Below are positions 18,584 through 25,133 of a DNA stretch of 45,909 nucleotides, in pieces. Below the pieces are notes generated by a model. That model did no database searches. It saw only the letters and a program-made list of their open reading frames with translations, and was not told the origin of the DNA. This DNA is from Planctomycetaceae bacterium. GTDB lineage: Bacteria; Planctomycetota; Planctomycetia; Planctomycetales; Planctomycetaceae. Position numbers and translations under genes: made by a program. Each line of letters begins with the position of its first letter. Position 1 is the stretch's first letter. The stretch is taken from assembly GCA_028284885.1 (NCBI GenBank), contig JANQQW010000265.1:1-45909 (forward strand), in the 5' to 3' direction.

Positions 18584-19741
18584 CTACTGCCCCGAGGAAC
18601 GTGAGCCGTCGGGCGAGCCGGCGATCGGGACTCCGTCCGGCAGCGGACGACCGGCGACCAGGAAGTCGTTCTCGTGCGCGACCTTCTGCAGCCTCCGGTA
18701 GATCTCGAAGCTGTCCGGGTAGACCCAGAGCGTCAGCGTGGTGTCGTCGCCGGCGTAGCCGAGCGCTCGGCGGAACCGCGACCCGGAGGCGATCGCCTCG
18801 TCGTACGTCTCCGGCTCGAGCTCGTCGGTCGGGACGACCTCCCACCGCGAAAGGCCGATCCGGACGACGCCGACGTTCCCCCGGAGTCGGTCGATCGACG
18901 AGAGCTGCTGCCGCTGGACGACGTACTTCAACTCGAACCCGTCGACCGGGCCGACGACGCCCTGGTGGCTGCGGAACTTCACCAGCCAGTCCCGCTGACG
19001 CTCCACCTGGGACTTCAGCCGGTCGAGGAGTTCTTCGAGCGGGACCGGGGCGATCCGGTTGCCGGACAGCCGGAAGTGCAACTCGCGGTTCTGGACGAGT
19101 CGGCTGACCGGCGTCAGCTCGTGCTCGACCTTCTCCACGTTCCTCGTCGTCGTCTCGGCCTTTCGGGTCTCCTCTCGCAGCGAGACGACGAGGTTCCGGG
19201 ACCGGTCGAGGTCGGCCGACAGCGCGGCGACGTCGGCGGCCGTCGCCTGCACACTCCGCTCCTGGTCGGCGACTCGCTGTTCGGCGAGCCGGAGCTCACG
19301 CCGCGTGGCCGCGAGTTCCGCCTCCACCGTCCGCCCCTTCGCGAAGGACGAGTCGTTGGACTTCTCGAGCGTTGCGAGCCGACGCCGGAGTCGCTCGACC
19401 TCGCGGAGCAACTCGGGCGACGCCTCGGGGGCCGGCGCCTCGACGTAGATCGTCCGAGGACGTTCCGGCGCGTCCTGCGGGGGCTCGGGCAGCAGCTGGG
19501 GATCGACACCGCCGAGCGGCATCGCGGCCGGCTCGACCGTCTCCGGCATCACCGGTGGAACGGGCGCCGCCGCGGCGGCCTCCTCTTCCACCTGAACGAG
19601 GTCCTGCAGCGGCGCGTTCCCCACGCGGACGCCGGCCACCACGATCAGGATGATCAGAATCCCGACGATGTTCGCGATGATGTCGAGAAACGAGTCGGAG
19701 CCGAAGCCGATCTCGCCGTCGCGTTGCGTTCGTCTGCTCAT
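18584..19741 (-). CDS. ExbD-like protein with TM Asp and coiled coil (triad subunit 3)
   Basis: 385 residues. A short N-terminus leads to one membrane helix (about 18-37, SFLDIIANIVGILIILIVV) with Asp20 near its start, placed like the proton-carrying Asp of ExbD/TolR/MotB. Then come a Pro-rich linker (58-105), a predicted coiled coil (108-210), and a periplasmic domain. Within it, TLTLWVYPDSFEIYRRLQKV (334-353) recalls the ExbD pattern of a hydrophobic strand, Pro/Ala-Asp, Tyr and an amphipathic helix. It is the last gene of the triad, 52 nt after the 668-residue partner. Expected role: ion-coupled stator subunit with the ExbB-like protein at 21937. No OmpA/peptidoglycan-binding domain is evident. 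Confidence 0.75.
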   Translation of the reverse strand: MSRRTQRDGEIGFGSDSFLDIIANIVGILIILIVVAGVRVGNAPLQDLVQVEEEAAAAAPVPPVMPETVEPAAMPLGGVDPQLLPEPPQDAPERPRTIYVEAPAPEASPELLREVERLRRRLATLEKSNDSSFAKGRTVEAELAATRRELRLAEQRVADQERSVQATAADVAALSADLDRSRNLVVSLREETRKAETTTRNVEKVEHELTPVSRLVQNRELHFRLSGNRIAPVPLEELLDRLKSQVERQRDWLVKFRSHQGVVGPVDGFELKYVVQRQQLSSIDRLRGNVGVVRIGLSRWEVVPTDELEPETYDEAIASGSRFRRALGYAGDDTTLTLWVYPDSFEIYRRLQKVAHENDFLVAGRPLPDGVPIAGSPDGSRSSGQ

Positions 19742-19793
19742 GCTGAGTCGGGAGGCCAGAGTCGAGAGGCGGGAGTCCGAGCGGTCGTGCCCG

Positions 19794-21800
19794 TCATCCT
19801 CGTTTGGACGTGTCCCCGGTCGAGCCGAGTTCGTACTCGACCTGGGACTTCAAGCCGGTCTTCTCGATGCGAGTTCGGATGCGTTCGTAGTGGATGTTGC
19901 CGCCCGTGCTGACCCGGAACCGGACCCGGGGGACCCAGTGGAATCCGCGGGGCGGCGCGTCCCACCCGGCGACGACGCCGTCCACGCCCTGCAGCACGGC
20001 CGCGCTCAGTTCCCCGGCCGTCTGCCCGCGCTCGTACGGCAGGGTGAAGCGGTCGCCGACGACGATGCGGTCGGAGAGCACCTCGACGACCACGTCCTTC
20101 TCGTAGCCGATTCCGCCGCGACGCACGGCTGGGTGACCGCCACGCGACGACGCATGCCCGCGAGTGGCTCGCGTGAAGACATCGTCGGGCCGCGGGCCGT
20201 CGAAGGCCGTCCGTTCCTCGACCTTCGGGAACGCGTCGTCCGTGCTCTCGGGCTTCGTGTCGATCAGCCCGCCGTCCCACGGCCGGTCCTCACCGCCGGG
20301 CCGGGTTGCGACGTCGATCGGAGGCCCGGCCGCCCCACTCGACCCGTCGCCACTGCCCTCGTTGCCGGCCGGCCTGGGAGCCGGTGGAGCCGGTGCGCCG
20401 CCGGGGGACTTCGCGTCCCCGTTTCCCCGCCCACCCTGACGAGCGAGTTCGACCTCGGTGGCGCTTCTCTCCGTCGGGGAGAAGACCCTGACGAGATGCC
20501 CCCCCCGAGCCCCGCCTTCGCGTGGCTCGGTTCCGTCATGGCCGCGTTCCCCGGCCGAACCTCCGGGCTGCCCCGCGATGCCGACGCGCGGCGACGTTCC
20601 GATGCCCACGGGGCCGCGCGGTCGGCCGCCTTCAGTGCCGGTCGGCGTGCCGGACGCTCCAGCTCTCCCGTCACCGGCCGGAGCGCCCCGCGAGCCGCCG
20701 CCGAGCCCCTGTCCGAACGGACCCCCGCCCTGCCCCGCGTCGGTGAGCAGTCGGGCGTCCTTCACGATGAGATCCCGCTCGGCGATCAGCCGCCGCGTCT
20801 CCATCTGGACGATTCGCTGGGCCACCGGATCGGGCTCCGGCAGGGCCACCTCGAAGTCGTCCGGCACGAGCTCGTAGCCGTACGGCTGGCCGAGTCGGTC
20901 GAGCATCCGCCGCGCGGCGTAGTACGCGGCCGCCCCGTCCGGGCGAACCAGCAGCAGCACGTAGGGCTCGGGGGCACTCGGGTCGTCACGACGGTCGATG
21001 CCCCGCCAGTGGGCAATGAGGCCTCGCGTCCCGGCGAGCAGCGGGTTGAGTCGGTAGGTGAAGCCGATCAGGTCGGCCTCGGTCAGCAGCACGTCCTCCG
21101 GGACGAACCGCAGTCCCTCCTCCGTACACTCGATGTAGATCGGCCGGCGGGACGTGCCCGTCGTCCCGTCGTACGGGACGAAGGCGAACTCGCTGTCCTT
21201 CGACTCCGCCTGCTCGCGGGCCAGACGCAGCCGGAGCTCGAGGTCGCGAGTCTCCGAGTCCGCGGCCGCCCGCTGTCGCTGAAGCTCCGTCGCACGGGCG
21301 AGCAGTCGGTCCATCTCGGACTGCCGCGTCTTCAGCGAGGTGGCCGTCCGAGCGGCGAGAGCACGCGTCGCGTCCAGTTCGTCCTGAACCGTGGCGAGCG
21401 CTCCGGCGATCTCGGTCGACCGAATCGTCTGTTCGGCGAGGAGCGATTCGAGGCTCTCGACCGCTCGCCGGAGTTCGACGTTCGGATCGGGCTCCCTGCT
21501 CGGCACGACGACGACCTTCGGCTCCGGTGGCTCCACCGGCTCGGGCGGCGGTGCCGCGGTCGGGAGCGGCGGAACGGGAACGAAGACGTTCGTCGGGCCG
21601 ACCGCCGGCGGCGGCTCCTCTTCCGTGGGCGGGTTGGCGACCTCTTCCCGAGCCGCCACGAACTCGGCTCGCGCGTTCTCGCGAATGCGGCGAGTCGTCA
21701 CCAGCAGCAGGAAGATGAGCGCCCCCATCGCGCACACGAGCACCGCGAGGAACGGGAACAGCGAGACCGAGTTCTGCGTTCTGCTCGCGGATCGGCTCAT
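19794..21800 (-). CDS. Large ExbD-like protein without TM Asp, two ExbD-like folds (triad subunit 2)
   Basis: 668 residues. One membrane helix at 13-34 (LFPFLAVLVCAMGALIFLLL) contains no Asp or Glu, so the usual proton carrier is missing. A Pro-rich linker (57-105) and coiled coil (105-200) follow. The first ExbD-like domain (about 218-320) contains YVLLLVRPDGAAAYYAARRM. A Gly/Pro/Arg-rich low-complexity stretch spans 355-535. A second ExbD-like domain (about 568-658) has VRFRVSTGGNIHYERIRT. The two-domain layout is read from recurring patterns, not alignment. The gene lies 136 nt after the ExbB-like gene, with a REP-like palindrome between. Presumed partner of that channel; cargo or energy use unknown. 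Confidence 0.72.
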   Translation of the reverse strand: MSRSASRTQNSVSLFPFLAVLVCAMGALIFLLLVTTRRIRENARAEFVAAREEVANPPTEEEPPPAVGPTNVFVPVPPLPTAAPPPEPVEPPEPKVVVVPSREPDPNVELRRAVESLESLLAEQTIRSTEIAGALATVQDELDATRALAARTATSLKTRQSEMDRLLARATELQRQRAAADSETRDLELRLRLAREQAESKDSEFAFVPYDGTTGTSRRPIYIECTEEGLRFVPEDVLLTEADLIGFTYRLNPLLAGTRGLIAHWRGIDRRDDPSAPEPYVLLLVRPDGAAAYYAARRMLDRLGQPYGYELVPDDFEVALPEPDPVAQRIVQMETRRLIAERDLIVKDARLLTDAGQGGGPFGQGLGGGSRGAPAGDGRAGASGTPTGTEGGRPRGPVGIGTSPRVGIAGQPGGSAGERGHDGTEPREGGARGGHLVRVFSPTERSATEVELARQGGRGNGDAKSPGGAPAPPAPRPAGNEGSGDGSSGAAGPPIDVATRPGGEDRPWDGGLIDTKPESTDDAFPKVEERTAFDGPRPDDVFTRATRGHASSRGGHPAVRRGGIGYEKDVVVEVLSDRIVVGDRFTLPYERGQTAGELSAAVLQGVDGVVAGWDAPPRGFHWVPRVRFRVSTGGNIHYERIRTRIEKTGLKSQVEYELGSTGDTSKRG

Positions 21801-21890
21801 GATCTCGTGGTTCCGGGCGATACGGCGGCGACGGCTTCGTCAGTCTCGGGGGAGTTCGGTATGCCGAACGACGGCTGCCCTTGTCCCCTG

Positions 21891-21914
21891 CCCTGCCCCG
21901 CGAGGGGGAGAGGG
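21891..21914. repeat. REP-like imperfect palindrome in the triad operon
   Basis: CCCTGCCCC-GCGA-GGGGGAGAGGG folds as a GC-rich imperfect stem in the 136-bp gap between the ExbB-like and large ExbD-like genes. Similar CCCTCTCCCC/GGGGAGAGGG palindromes are known as dispersed repeats in many genomes; only one copy is seen here. It could tune expression of the downstream genes. Confidence 0.4.
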
Positions 21915-21936
21915 TGCACTCCAAGTGGCGTCGGAG

Positions 21937-23406
21937 TCAGGCGGCCTTCGGCTTGGCGCGGGCGGTCAGAAGGTGGACGGCGGCCGTCAGCTCGTGGAGG
22001 GCCTCCTCGAACGTCTCGGCACTGCGGACGGCGTCGAGGTTCTCGTTCAGCCGCAGTTGCAGGCGGGCGAGTTCCTCTTCCTCCTGCACGATCTTCAGCA
22101 GCACCTCGCCCTGCTTGCGAAGCTCGTCCCGTTGACCGGCTGCCGCCTCGTTCGTTTCCTCCAGCCGGGACAGCCAGCCGCCGAGCCGTTCGGCCATCGC
22201 CTCGGCCACGGCGTCCACGCGGGCCGCGTTCCGCTCCTGCATGTCGGCGAGCCCGTCCCGCAGTCGTGTCCAGGTCTGTTCGAGGTCGTCGGCGAACTTG
22301 TCGTGCATCAGCCGTTGGGCCTGCTGCGACATGCCGATCCCCTCCTGCATGGACGTGCTGATTCGCTCGAAGGCGGTCAGGAACTCCGTTCGCGTCTCGC
22401 TCAGCCGGCGGTCGTGCTCTTCGAGCGTACGGCCGATGCTGCTGCTGAGGGCGTCGTCGAGCTGCGACTGCTGGGCCGTCAGCGTCTCCTGCCAGCGCGA
22501 CCGCATCGTCTCCAGCGACTCGTTCCAGACGCGGACCTGGTCCTCGACCATAGACTCGGTCTGGGCGAGCAGTTGGGCGGCCGCCTCGCGTTCGGCGTCG
22601 GCGAGCGGGCTGCCGGTCGAGCCGTTCTCCGGGAACAGCGTCATCAACTCGCGAACGCCGAAGTCCTCGACGCGGGCGAGCACGTTCTGTTCCTGCCGTT
22701 CGACGAGGAACGACGCGAAGACCAGCACCAGCGACAGCGCGAGGGCGAGGGCCGTGGTGTCGAACGCGACCGCGAGTCCGCCGGTGACCTCGCCGAGCGA
22801 GCTGTCGAGCTGCTCGGGCGTGACGTTCGCGATCGCGATCGTGATGCCGATGACCGTTCCGAGGAACCCGAGGATCGGGACGGCCCAGGTGATCGTGCGG
22901 ACGAGGGCGTAGCTGGCGTGCAGCCGGTCGGCCGCGAGTTCGGCGAGGTACTTGAGGTGTTCCTCGAGTCCGCTGGTGCTGTGGCGGGCACGGACGTAGG
23001 AACAGACGTCGGTGACGCGGGTGCCGACGGCCGAGTTCCGCACCTCCTCGGACAGCCCCTGCATGCGGTCCTCGAGAGCGGTGGCGGTGGCCATCGCGTC
23101 CTTGCCGACGCCGATCTCGCGGACGTCGAGTTCCGGCCGGCGGAAGGCCGCGGACTGGGCGAGCGCTCCGACCGCCTTGCCGGTCAGGAGAGCGAGCCCT
23201 ATGAAGAACAGGGCCGTCGTCGCGTACTCCAGCGGGTGGCTGCAGAAGTACCGGACGAGGAGGTCGCGCTGCACCGGCGCGTGCGGCAACGCGGCGTAGA
23301 ACGCGAACGTCACCACGCCGCCCCACAACAGCGGGGAACTCAGGACCGCCCCGAGAGGATCGCGTCCGCCCGAGCGCTTCTTGTCCGCCGAGGTGGTCTT
23401 GGTCAT
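21937..23406 (-). CDS. ExbB/TolQ/MotA-type proton channel protein with long helical tail (triad subunit 1)
   Basis: 489 residues. Hydrophobic helices lie at about 25-42, 58-82, 172-195 and 208-234. The last two carry the family signatures PILGFLGTVIGITIAI and GGLAVAFDTTALALALSLVLV, with the conserved Thr expected in the ion pathway. Residues 100-165 are the cytoplasmic loop. From 265 to 480 the sequence is almost wholly charged helix (coiled coil), far longer than in ExbB or TolQ and reminiscent of ZorA's tail. ATG at 23406 is chosen because GGAAGGA lies 8 nt upstream; a TTG two codons earlier would be too close. First gene of a three-gene minus-strand unit. Confidence 0.85.
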   Translation of the reverse strand: MTKTTSADKKRSGGRDPLGAVLSSPLLWGGVVTFAFYAALPHAPVQRDLLVRYFCSHPLEYATTALFFIGLALLTGKAVGALAQSAAFRRPELDVREIGVGKDAMATATALEDRMQGLSEEVRNSAVGTRVTDVCSYVRARHSTSGLEEHLKYLAELAADRLHASYALVRTITWAVPILGFLGTVIGITIAIANVTPEQLDSSLGEVTGGLAVAFDTTALALALSLVLVFASFLVERQEQNVLARVEDFGVRELMTLFPENGSTGSPLADAEREAAAQLLAQTESMVEDQVRVWNESLETMRSRWQETLTAQQSQLDDALSSSIGRTLEEHDRRLSETRTEFLTAFERISTSMQEGIGMSQQAQRLMHDKFADDLEQTWTRLRDGLADMQERNAARVDAVAEAMAERLGGWLSRLEETNEAAAGQRDELRKQGEVLLKIVQEEEELARLQLRLNENLDAVRSAETFEEALHELTAAVHLLTARAKPKAA

Positions 23407-24575: not shown

Positions 24576-25133
24576 TCAGGGCGTTGCCGGGGGCGGGACG
24601 AGTGACTCGGCGAGGTCGTCATCGACGGCGCTCTCGCCGATCCAGATGCCGAACAGGGCGCGGCGGAACTCCGTGCCCTCCACGGCCGCCTTGGACTTCC
24701 CGTTCACCCGGAGGGTCGTGCCGCTCGCCGGCGTGTAGGTGAACTCGACGACGTCCCCCTTCTCGATCTTCGCGTCGATCGAGTCGAACATCTGGTCGAT
24801 CCCGCGAGCGACCTCGGCTCCGGCGTCGCCGACGGCCGAAGAGACCATCCGCTTCAGCCGCGGCTTGGTGAACAGTCGGGACCGAACCTCGAGACGCACG
24901 GCGATCGGGTCGTCCGATGCGAGCAGGGCTTCCCCCGTCTTGGCGGCGGCGCCGGCCGTGTAGAGGGCTGCGTCATACAGCACCAAGCCGAACTTCCGTC
25001 GAGTCCCGGAGCCTCGCATGGGCAGCTCGGACTCGTCGATGCGGAGTCGCACGAGTTCCGCCCCGGTGCCGATCTCGTCGGCGTGGGCGTGTGGAACGAG
25101 GAGAGAGAGCAGCACTGCCGACAAGCGAACCAT
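24576..25133 (-). CDS. Exported chalcone-isomerase-like protein
   Basis: 185 residues with a signal peptide (hydrophobic 4-14, cleavage near HAHA-D). The mature part has the chalcone isomerase-like pattern: L-P-x-R-G-x-G-x-R-x-K-F-G-L-V-L-Y-D-A-A-L-Y (about 37-58), a central charged region, and near the end EFRRALFGIWIGESAVDDDLAESL. Bacterial members generally lack the plant catalytic residues and are thought to bind fatty-acid-like ligands; activity here is unproven. A palindrome overlapping a possible -10 lies about 61-78 nt upstream of its start. Confidence 0.82.
   Translation of the reverse strand: MVRLSAVLLSLLVPHAHADEIGTGAELVRLRIDESELPMRGSGTRRKFGLVLYDAALYTAGAAAKTGEALLASDDPIAVRLEVRSRLFTKPRLKRMVSSAVGDAGAEVARGIDQMFDSIDAKIEKGDVVEFTYTPASGTTLRVNGKSKAAVEGTEFRRALFGIWIGESAVDDDLAESLVPPPATP

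Follow-up and report, generated by a model that had tools for sequence, protein, structure and literature searches.

We found that three adjacent genes of a planctomycete, here called A, B and C, form a conserved unit that may encode a rotary motor of a variant 5:2 kind: its axle would be a B:C heterodimer, often with a single carboxylate, and the tail of its channel subunit would be read by an AAA+ protease. We give this reading a probability of about 0.55. According to it, A, B and C would assemble at 5:1:1 into one stator of the 5:2 type in the inner membrane, turned by ion flow, in which one B helix and one C helix, with their coiled coils paired, are ringed by five A subunits. In most species the ion in the axle would be bound by the Asp of C only. 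Rotation would be passed on through the coiled coils to ExbD-type domains that these keep extended into the periplasm. The second such domain of B, on a flexible tether of ~200 residues, might reach further and grip the wall or the outer membrane. In the cytoplasm the five A tails would come together as a rod, and a ClpX-type AAA+ protease could read their exposed Ala-Ala ends, setting the lifetime of the motor. Its job in Planctomycetia would probably be general envelope upkeep.

The window (the whole 45,909-nucleotide stretch analysed) lies on contig C347 of a high-GC, 6.5-Mb genome in 399 contigs with planctomycete features. Three ORFs of 489, 668 and 385 residues span 23406-18584 of the window, and they and the parts of them described below are all on the minus strand. 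Gene A (21937..23406) is the first of the unit and encodes a channel subunit of the MotA/TolQ/ExbB family (Pfam PF01618) that is conserved in relatives (23-sequence alignment A3). It is followed by gene B (19794..21800), which encodes an ExbD-type partner that lacks the Asp, and gene C (18584..19741), which encodes an ExbD-type partner that retains it. A preliminary description of this DNA had proposed a three-gene minus-strand unit and read it as a stator-like triad; the ORFs bear out the former, and as a real, conserved unit the triad was recovered in A-B-C order at 70 of 105 distinct loci. Three features escaped that description: the Asp asymmetry of the partners, the second ExbD-type domain in B and, in A, the conserved -AA end. 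Upstream of the window triad lie one hypothetical gene and one encoding a chalcone-isomerase-like protein (24576-25133; PF16036, 1.5e-29), whose position is not conserved among relatives. Downstream, on the opposite strand, is what we take by eye to be a gene for a CCA-adding-enzyme-like protein.

Homologue searches recovered A in 59/59 related genomes and both B and C in 52/59, the A matches in families f2 and f3 being weak, generic relatives. We saw complete A-B-C units throughout family f1 and, within the same class, in families f4-f7, and none in family f3. Besides the 70 A-B-C loci, the distinct loci included 25 with B-C (some truncated by contig ends, some from family f2), 8 with A after C (on the other strand in two cases) and 2 with C only. 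Across the distinct loci the median gap between B and C was -4 nt; the two genes thus usually overlap, which is consistent with a 1:1 pair of their products. When named genomes were searched in a single scan, C relatives were found at 400 loci, the best 80 of which bear planctomycete names (almost all of the related named records have the label Planctomycetes), with Gimesia, Schlesneria, Thalassoglobus, Fuerstiella and Planctomicrobium among the genera; several contigs with C relatives carry the recorded label Candidatus Kuenenia. In a sample of 294 genomes from across the phylum, strong C matches were confined to Planctomycetia, and in that sample we rejected a spread beyond the class, as the weak C matches there were mostly short or coiled-coil stretches. 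The A-B-C homologies are far above chance, and the unit is conserved across the class Planctomycetia and nearly universal in its family. The latter suggests that its role in these bacteria, whose envelope is unusual, is probably a basic one. One family f1 genome, G161, had no C match, though another species of its genus (G027) has one; this is possibly a recent loss.

The genes flanking the triad vary from locus to locus, and all-against-all clustering of the neighbours at 41 loci found no gene family conserved beside it. The preliminary description had seen no known cargo genes. It had also proposed a check for conserved synteny, naming constant placement beside tonB/tolA or flagellar genes as the pattern that would speak against it. 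Across about 40 neighbourhoods no partner gene was conserved and that pattern was not seen; nor did the clustering bring out a linked cargo gene.

A matched Pfam PF01618 (MotA_ExbB) over residues 140-246 with an E-value of 1.2e-12 and 48.1 bits, the curated cut-off being 22.9, and so belongs to the MotA/TolQ/ExbB proton channel family. Its hydropathy profile has four peaks (18-36, 65-83, 168-193 and 217-235), suggesting four transmembrane helices as in MotA and ZorA. From the peaks and the columns of alignment A3, the last two helices were placed at residues 168-235 (22702..22905). They contain FLGTV (Thr184) and FDTT (Asp216-Thr217-Thr218), in which FLGTV with its Thr184 and the Thr217-Thr218 pair are invariant among the 23 sequences. 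After the channel part comes a long helical cytoplasmic tail (residues 250-489, 21940..22659) with the conserved end motif FEETLHxLTAAVHLLTAR; the C-terminal helical tail of ~220 residues described earlier is thus present, from about 250 to 489. The closest solved relatives of A by profile were ZorA type II (8VVI, 7.1e-7) and type I (8VVN, 4.6e-6), which come from ZorAB 5:2 motors. This relationship, together with membership of PF01618 and the conserved pore Thr residues, argues for a motor.

The likeness to Zorya raises the question of whether the triad could be a Zorya-type defence motor that has been stripped down or has diverged. In ZorAB of types I and II, as in the triad, the channel subunit is of the MotA/ExbB type and its cytoplasmic tail is long, helical and of the pentamer type, and ZorA profiles matched A at 4e-11 to 5e-14; however, the A of the window fell below all NCBIfam ZorA cut-offs. 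Zorya has a ZorB homodimer with a peptidoglycan-binding domain and is accompanied by effector genes (PMC11890865), whereas the triad has two unlike B-type subunits in place of one ZorB and no effector neighbours, and its core-like genes occur in almost all genomes of the family. PADLOC, run on five proteins, detected neither a ZorB nor an effector, and there were no conserved neighbours. We consider a defence motor of this kind highly improbable.

We then compared predicted structures of B and C. Hydropathy gave each a single N-terminal transmembrane helix, and in single-chain AlphaFold2 models this corresponded to a helix at residues 15-54 in B (mean pLDDT of the model 70.5) and to residues 15-42 in C (mean pLDDT 82). 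In the model of B the helix is followed by a coiled coil at residues 108-200 (21201..21479; pLDDT about 95), a first ExbD-type domain at residues 220-311 with the order EE-H-E-H-E (20868..21143), a Gly/Pro-rich tether at residues 360-560 that is predicted to be disordered (20121..20723; pLDDT mostly below 50) and a second ExbD-type domain at residues 564-656 (19833..20111). Profile comparison indicated that the two ExbD-type domains of B are homologous to each other (about 80%). C is predicted to have a coiled coil at residues 109-197 (19151..19417; pLDDT about 97) and one periplasmic domain at residues 220-375 with the order EE-H-[insertion]-E-H-E (18617..19084), after which comes a conserved GSxxGSRSxxQ end. 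C thus has one ExbD-type domain and B two, with ~200 disordered residues between them. The GSxxGSRSxxQ end (18587-18640) has Gln as the last residue in 70 of 74 distinct C proteins, and the same end is found in family f2, in which the motor gene is lacking.

The profiles of B and C align over the transmembrane helix and coiled coil, at 98.5% for the whole profile and about 95% per segment; by this comparison B and C are paralogues. Their relation to ExbD was weaker. A Foldseek search with the B model matched ExbD 8vgd (TM-score 0.71 on the target, probability 0.99, E 0.07) alongside many matches to ribosomal protein S11, and the C model gave no match below E 0.001. In the family listings of 67 C and 55 B members the Pfam ExbD family PF02472 did not appear, and a search of the host genome found other ExbD genes only. 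B and C likewise had no profile match to classical planctomycete ExbD, and attempts to name them by Pfam, NCBIfam and PADLOC returned coiled-coil noise only. The description of both as ExbD-like partners is supported, on predicted models, by topology and context, and finds no counterpart in PF02472 or in the classical profiles; the models also bear out a coiled coil in each. The predicted ExbD-like fold of B counts for the heterodimeric motor; the weak match amid S11 hits and the missing profile relation to classical ExbD count against it. Compared with TolQR-TolA and ExbBD-TonB, the triad shares a PF01618 channel subunit and single-helix partners, whose periplasmic domains are predicted to have an ExbD-like topology; it differs in the long A tail, an apparently extra transmembrane segment in A and the lack of a Pfam ExbD match in B and C. 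We saw no TolA, TonB, TolB or Pal in the unit and no conserved neighbour of any kind on neighbour clustering, and B and C had no OmpA Pfam match of the flagellar MotAB kind.

The two partners differ at the ion-binding position of the transmembrane helix. C has Asp20 there (SFLDIIANIVGIL; codon 19682..19684), and this column is Asp in 98/98 distinct C proteins of window-type triads that could be aligned. On aligning the B and C profiles, Asp20 of C lies opposite Ala19 of B (SLFPFLAVL; codon 21744..21746). Among 86 distinct B proteins the column is Ala in 71, Thr in 4 and Asp in 11. The conserved transmembrane Asp of an ExbD/TolR/MotB-type axle is thus found in C and is not conserved in B. A second, paralogous triad had the same pattern, with Ser in 11 distinct B' proteins and Asp in 12/12 C' proteins, one of the 12 coming from the C114 locus. 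Since in most species only the Asp of C could bind an ion in the axle, the motor looks asymmetric. Paralogy over the helix and coiled coil, the alignment of Ala19 with Asp20, and an invariant C Asp with a mostly lost B Asp in two paralogous triads all favour a heterodimeric axle; Asp is still present in about 10% of B proteins, which argues against it.

Known 5:2 motors have an Asp on each axle helix, and in models of these motors the two axle carboxylates swap protons in turn (PMC9389320). The nearest precedent is the AglR-AglQ-AglS gliding motor of Myxococcus, which like the triad combines one channel subunit with two different MotB/TolR-type subunits. The transmembrane Asp is predicted in AglQ as well as in AglS (PMC9389320), whereas the triad usually has it on C only, with Ala19 in the B of the window and a residue other than Asp in 75 of the 86 distinct B proteins. 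Evolution seems to have removed one carboxylate and kept the other invariant; nature would thus have set up a test of how motors of this kind rotate, and of whether they need both axle carboxylates.

The Asp state of B changed several times on the family tree, so ready-made comparisons are at hand. Mapped onto the tree of C, it required 5 changes, and residue 216 of A, in the fourth transmembrane helix beside the conserved Thr pair (Asp216, codon 22759..22761), followed in 3 of 4 independent contrasts (p 0.25). Most Asp-bearing B proteins go with another type of A, which has FNTT instead of FDTT and whose gene often lies after C or is unlinked. Exceptions to this pairing of B Asp with A Asn216 are L209, the G033 clade, and L115 and L125 with Gly216. 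Co-variation between the B Asp and A 216 is therefore suggestive at the level of aligned residues; strict co-variation with Asp216 was rejected as not significant with four contrasts. A more specific form of the heterodimeric motor seems to us less likely than not: a stator with a single axle carboxylate, perhaps compensated by an Asp relocated to the surrounding wheel (A Asp216), whose lifetime would be set by five ssrA-like degrons at the tip of its cytoplasmic rod.

The main rival is that A5C2 is the motor, with the usual two Asp residues, and that B is docked outside the A ring as a force transducer, like TonB or TolA, with its tether and terminal domain conveying force to the outer envelope. 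Most B proteins lack the Asp, and in the predicted model a long disordered linker leads to a folded end domain as in TonB and TolA, as this arrangement would have it. However, B is paralogous to C along both the transmembrane helix and the coiled coil, and its helix in the window has no His of the SHLS type. Some B proteins keep the axle Asp, and one of these 11, at locus L231 (3711-6632), is a natural chimera with a C-type transmembrane helix. These cases suggest that the B helix is of the axle type. In addition, the B and C genes usually overlap, and in family f2 they persist jointly without A. We therefore regard a transducer outside the ring as doubtful.

Clusters of tolQ, two heterologous tolR, vWA and TPR genes have been described in Planctomycetes and the PVC group (PMC12204202, section 8). 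Like the triad, they combine one TolQ-like and two unlike TolR-like genes in Planctomycetes; the triad differs in having no adjacent vWA or TPR gene, a long A tail, coiled coils and a B that mostly lacks the Asp. Hence the earlier placement of the triad outside the known Exb, Tol, Mot and Zor systems stands insofar as the features of Ton, Tol-Pal, MotAB and Zorya were not found, and needs qualifying insofar as tolQ with two tolR is already published for planctomycetes (PMC12204202) and ZorA shares the long tail. Of the one-Asp pair, the -AA end and the planctomycete triads we found no direct description in the open-access literature.

These clusters raise a further reading, that the triad is the motor half of such a force-transduction system with its vWA partner encoded elsewhere. 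This reading concerns the cargo and is compatible with a B:C heterodimer. The host genome contains a cluster of this type (PMC12204202) on contig C6 (L277:1052-5452), with vWA, TPR-like, TolQ and two ExbD genes, the ExbD proteins being classical. Contig C114 (L134:6154-9560) has a TolQ-like piece, a vWA protein and two ExbD-type genes; there the TolQ-like gene appears split and both ExbD-type partners keep the Asp. In family f2 (L127-L132), B and C persist with no linked A and lack the transmembrane Asp, and at least 4 of 6 loci have a vWA gene oriented convergently to B-C. Against a vWA partner, no vWA or TPR family is conserved beside the triad at ~35 loci of families f1 and f4-f7, and the best vWA match in the host genome adjoins Tad-pilus genes. 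We consider such a partnership rather unlikely. A search for vWA as the hidden partner was given up, as each genome has many vWA paralogues and none could be assigned. The family f2 loci suggest that the periplasmic B-C module is separable from the motor and can apparently exist without it. In several family f2 B proteins a Glu lies close to where the helix begins.

Returning to the heterodimeric motor, we found that the A tail has a nearly fixed end. All 82 distinct tails end in Ala, 79 of them in -AA, as in the window (21940..21945), and 3 in -VA; the background of -AA ends among other proteins from the same loci was 3/369. The terminal pair is encoded by 17 different codon pairs and is followed by all three stop codons. 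Where the end motif could be located, the linker from the conserved helix to the end was 6 to 27 residues long. For ClpXP, no element of the ssrA degron matters more than its terminal Ala-Ala (PMC7652416), and the tmRNA tag of the host, AERNYALVA, ends in ALVA. We take an AAA+ protease to be the most probable reader of the A end, which could also serve another C-terminal reader. An -AA end this close to invariable would link a membrane motor of this kind with regulated proteolysis.

The paralogous triad is represented in the host genome by a second, stand-alone unit on contig C167 (L133:7574-11684), with Ser in B' and Asp in C'. The -AA end was absent from the eleven or so A' proteins listed. 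The A' of C167 has a zinc-ribbon-like N-terminus, and an additional ORF of 226 residues, which by eye we take to be Uma2-nuclease-like, lies between A' and B'.
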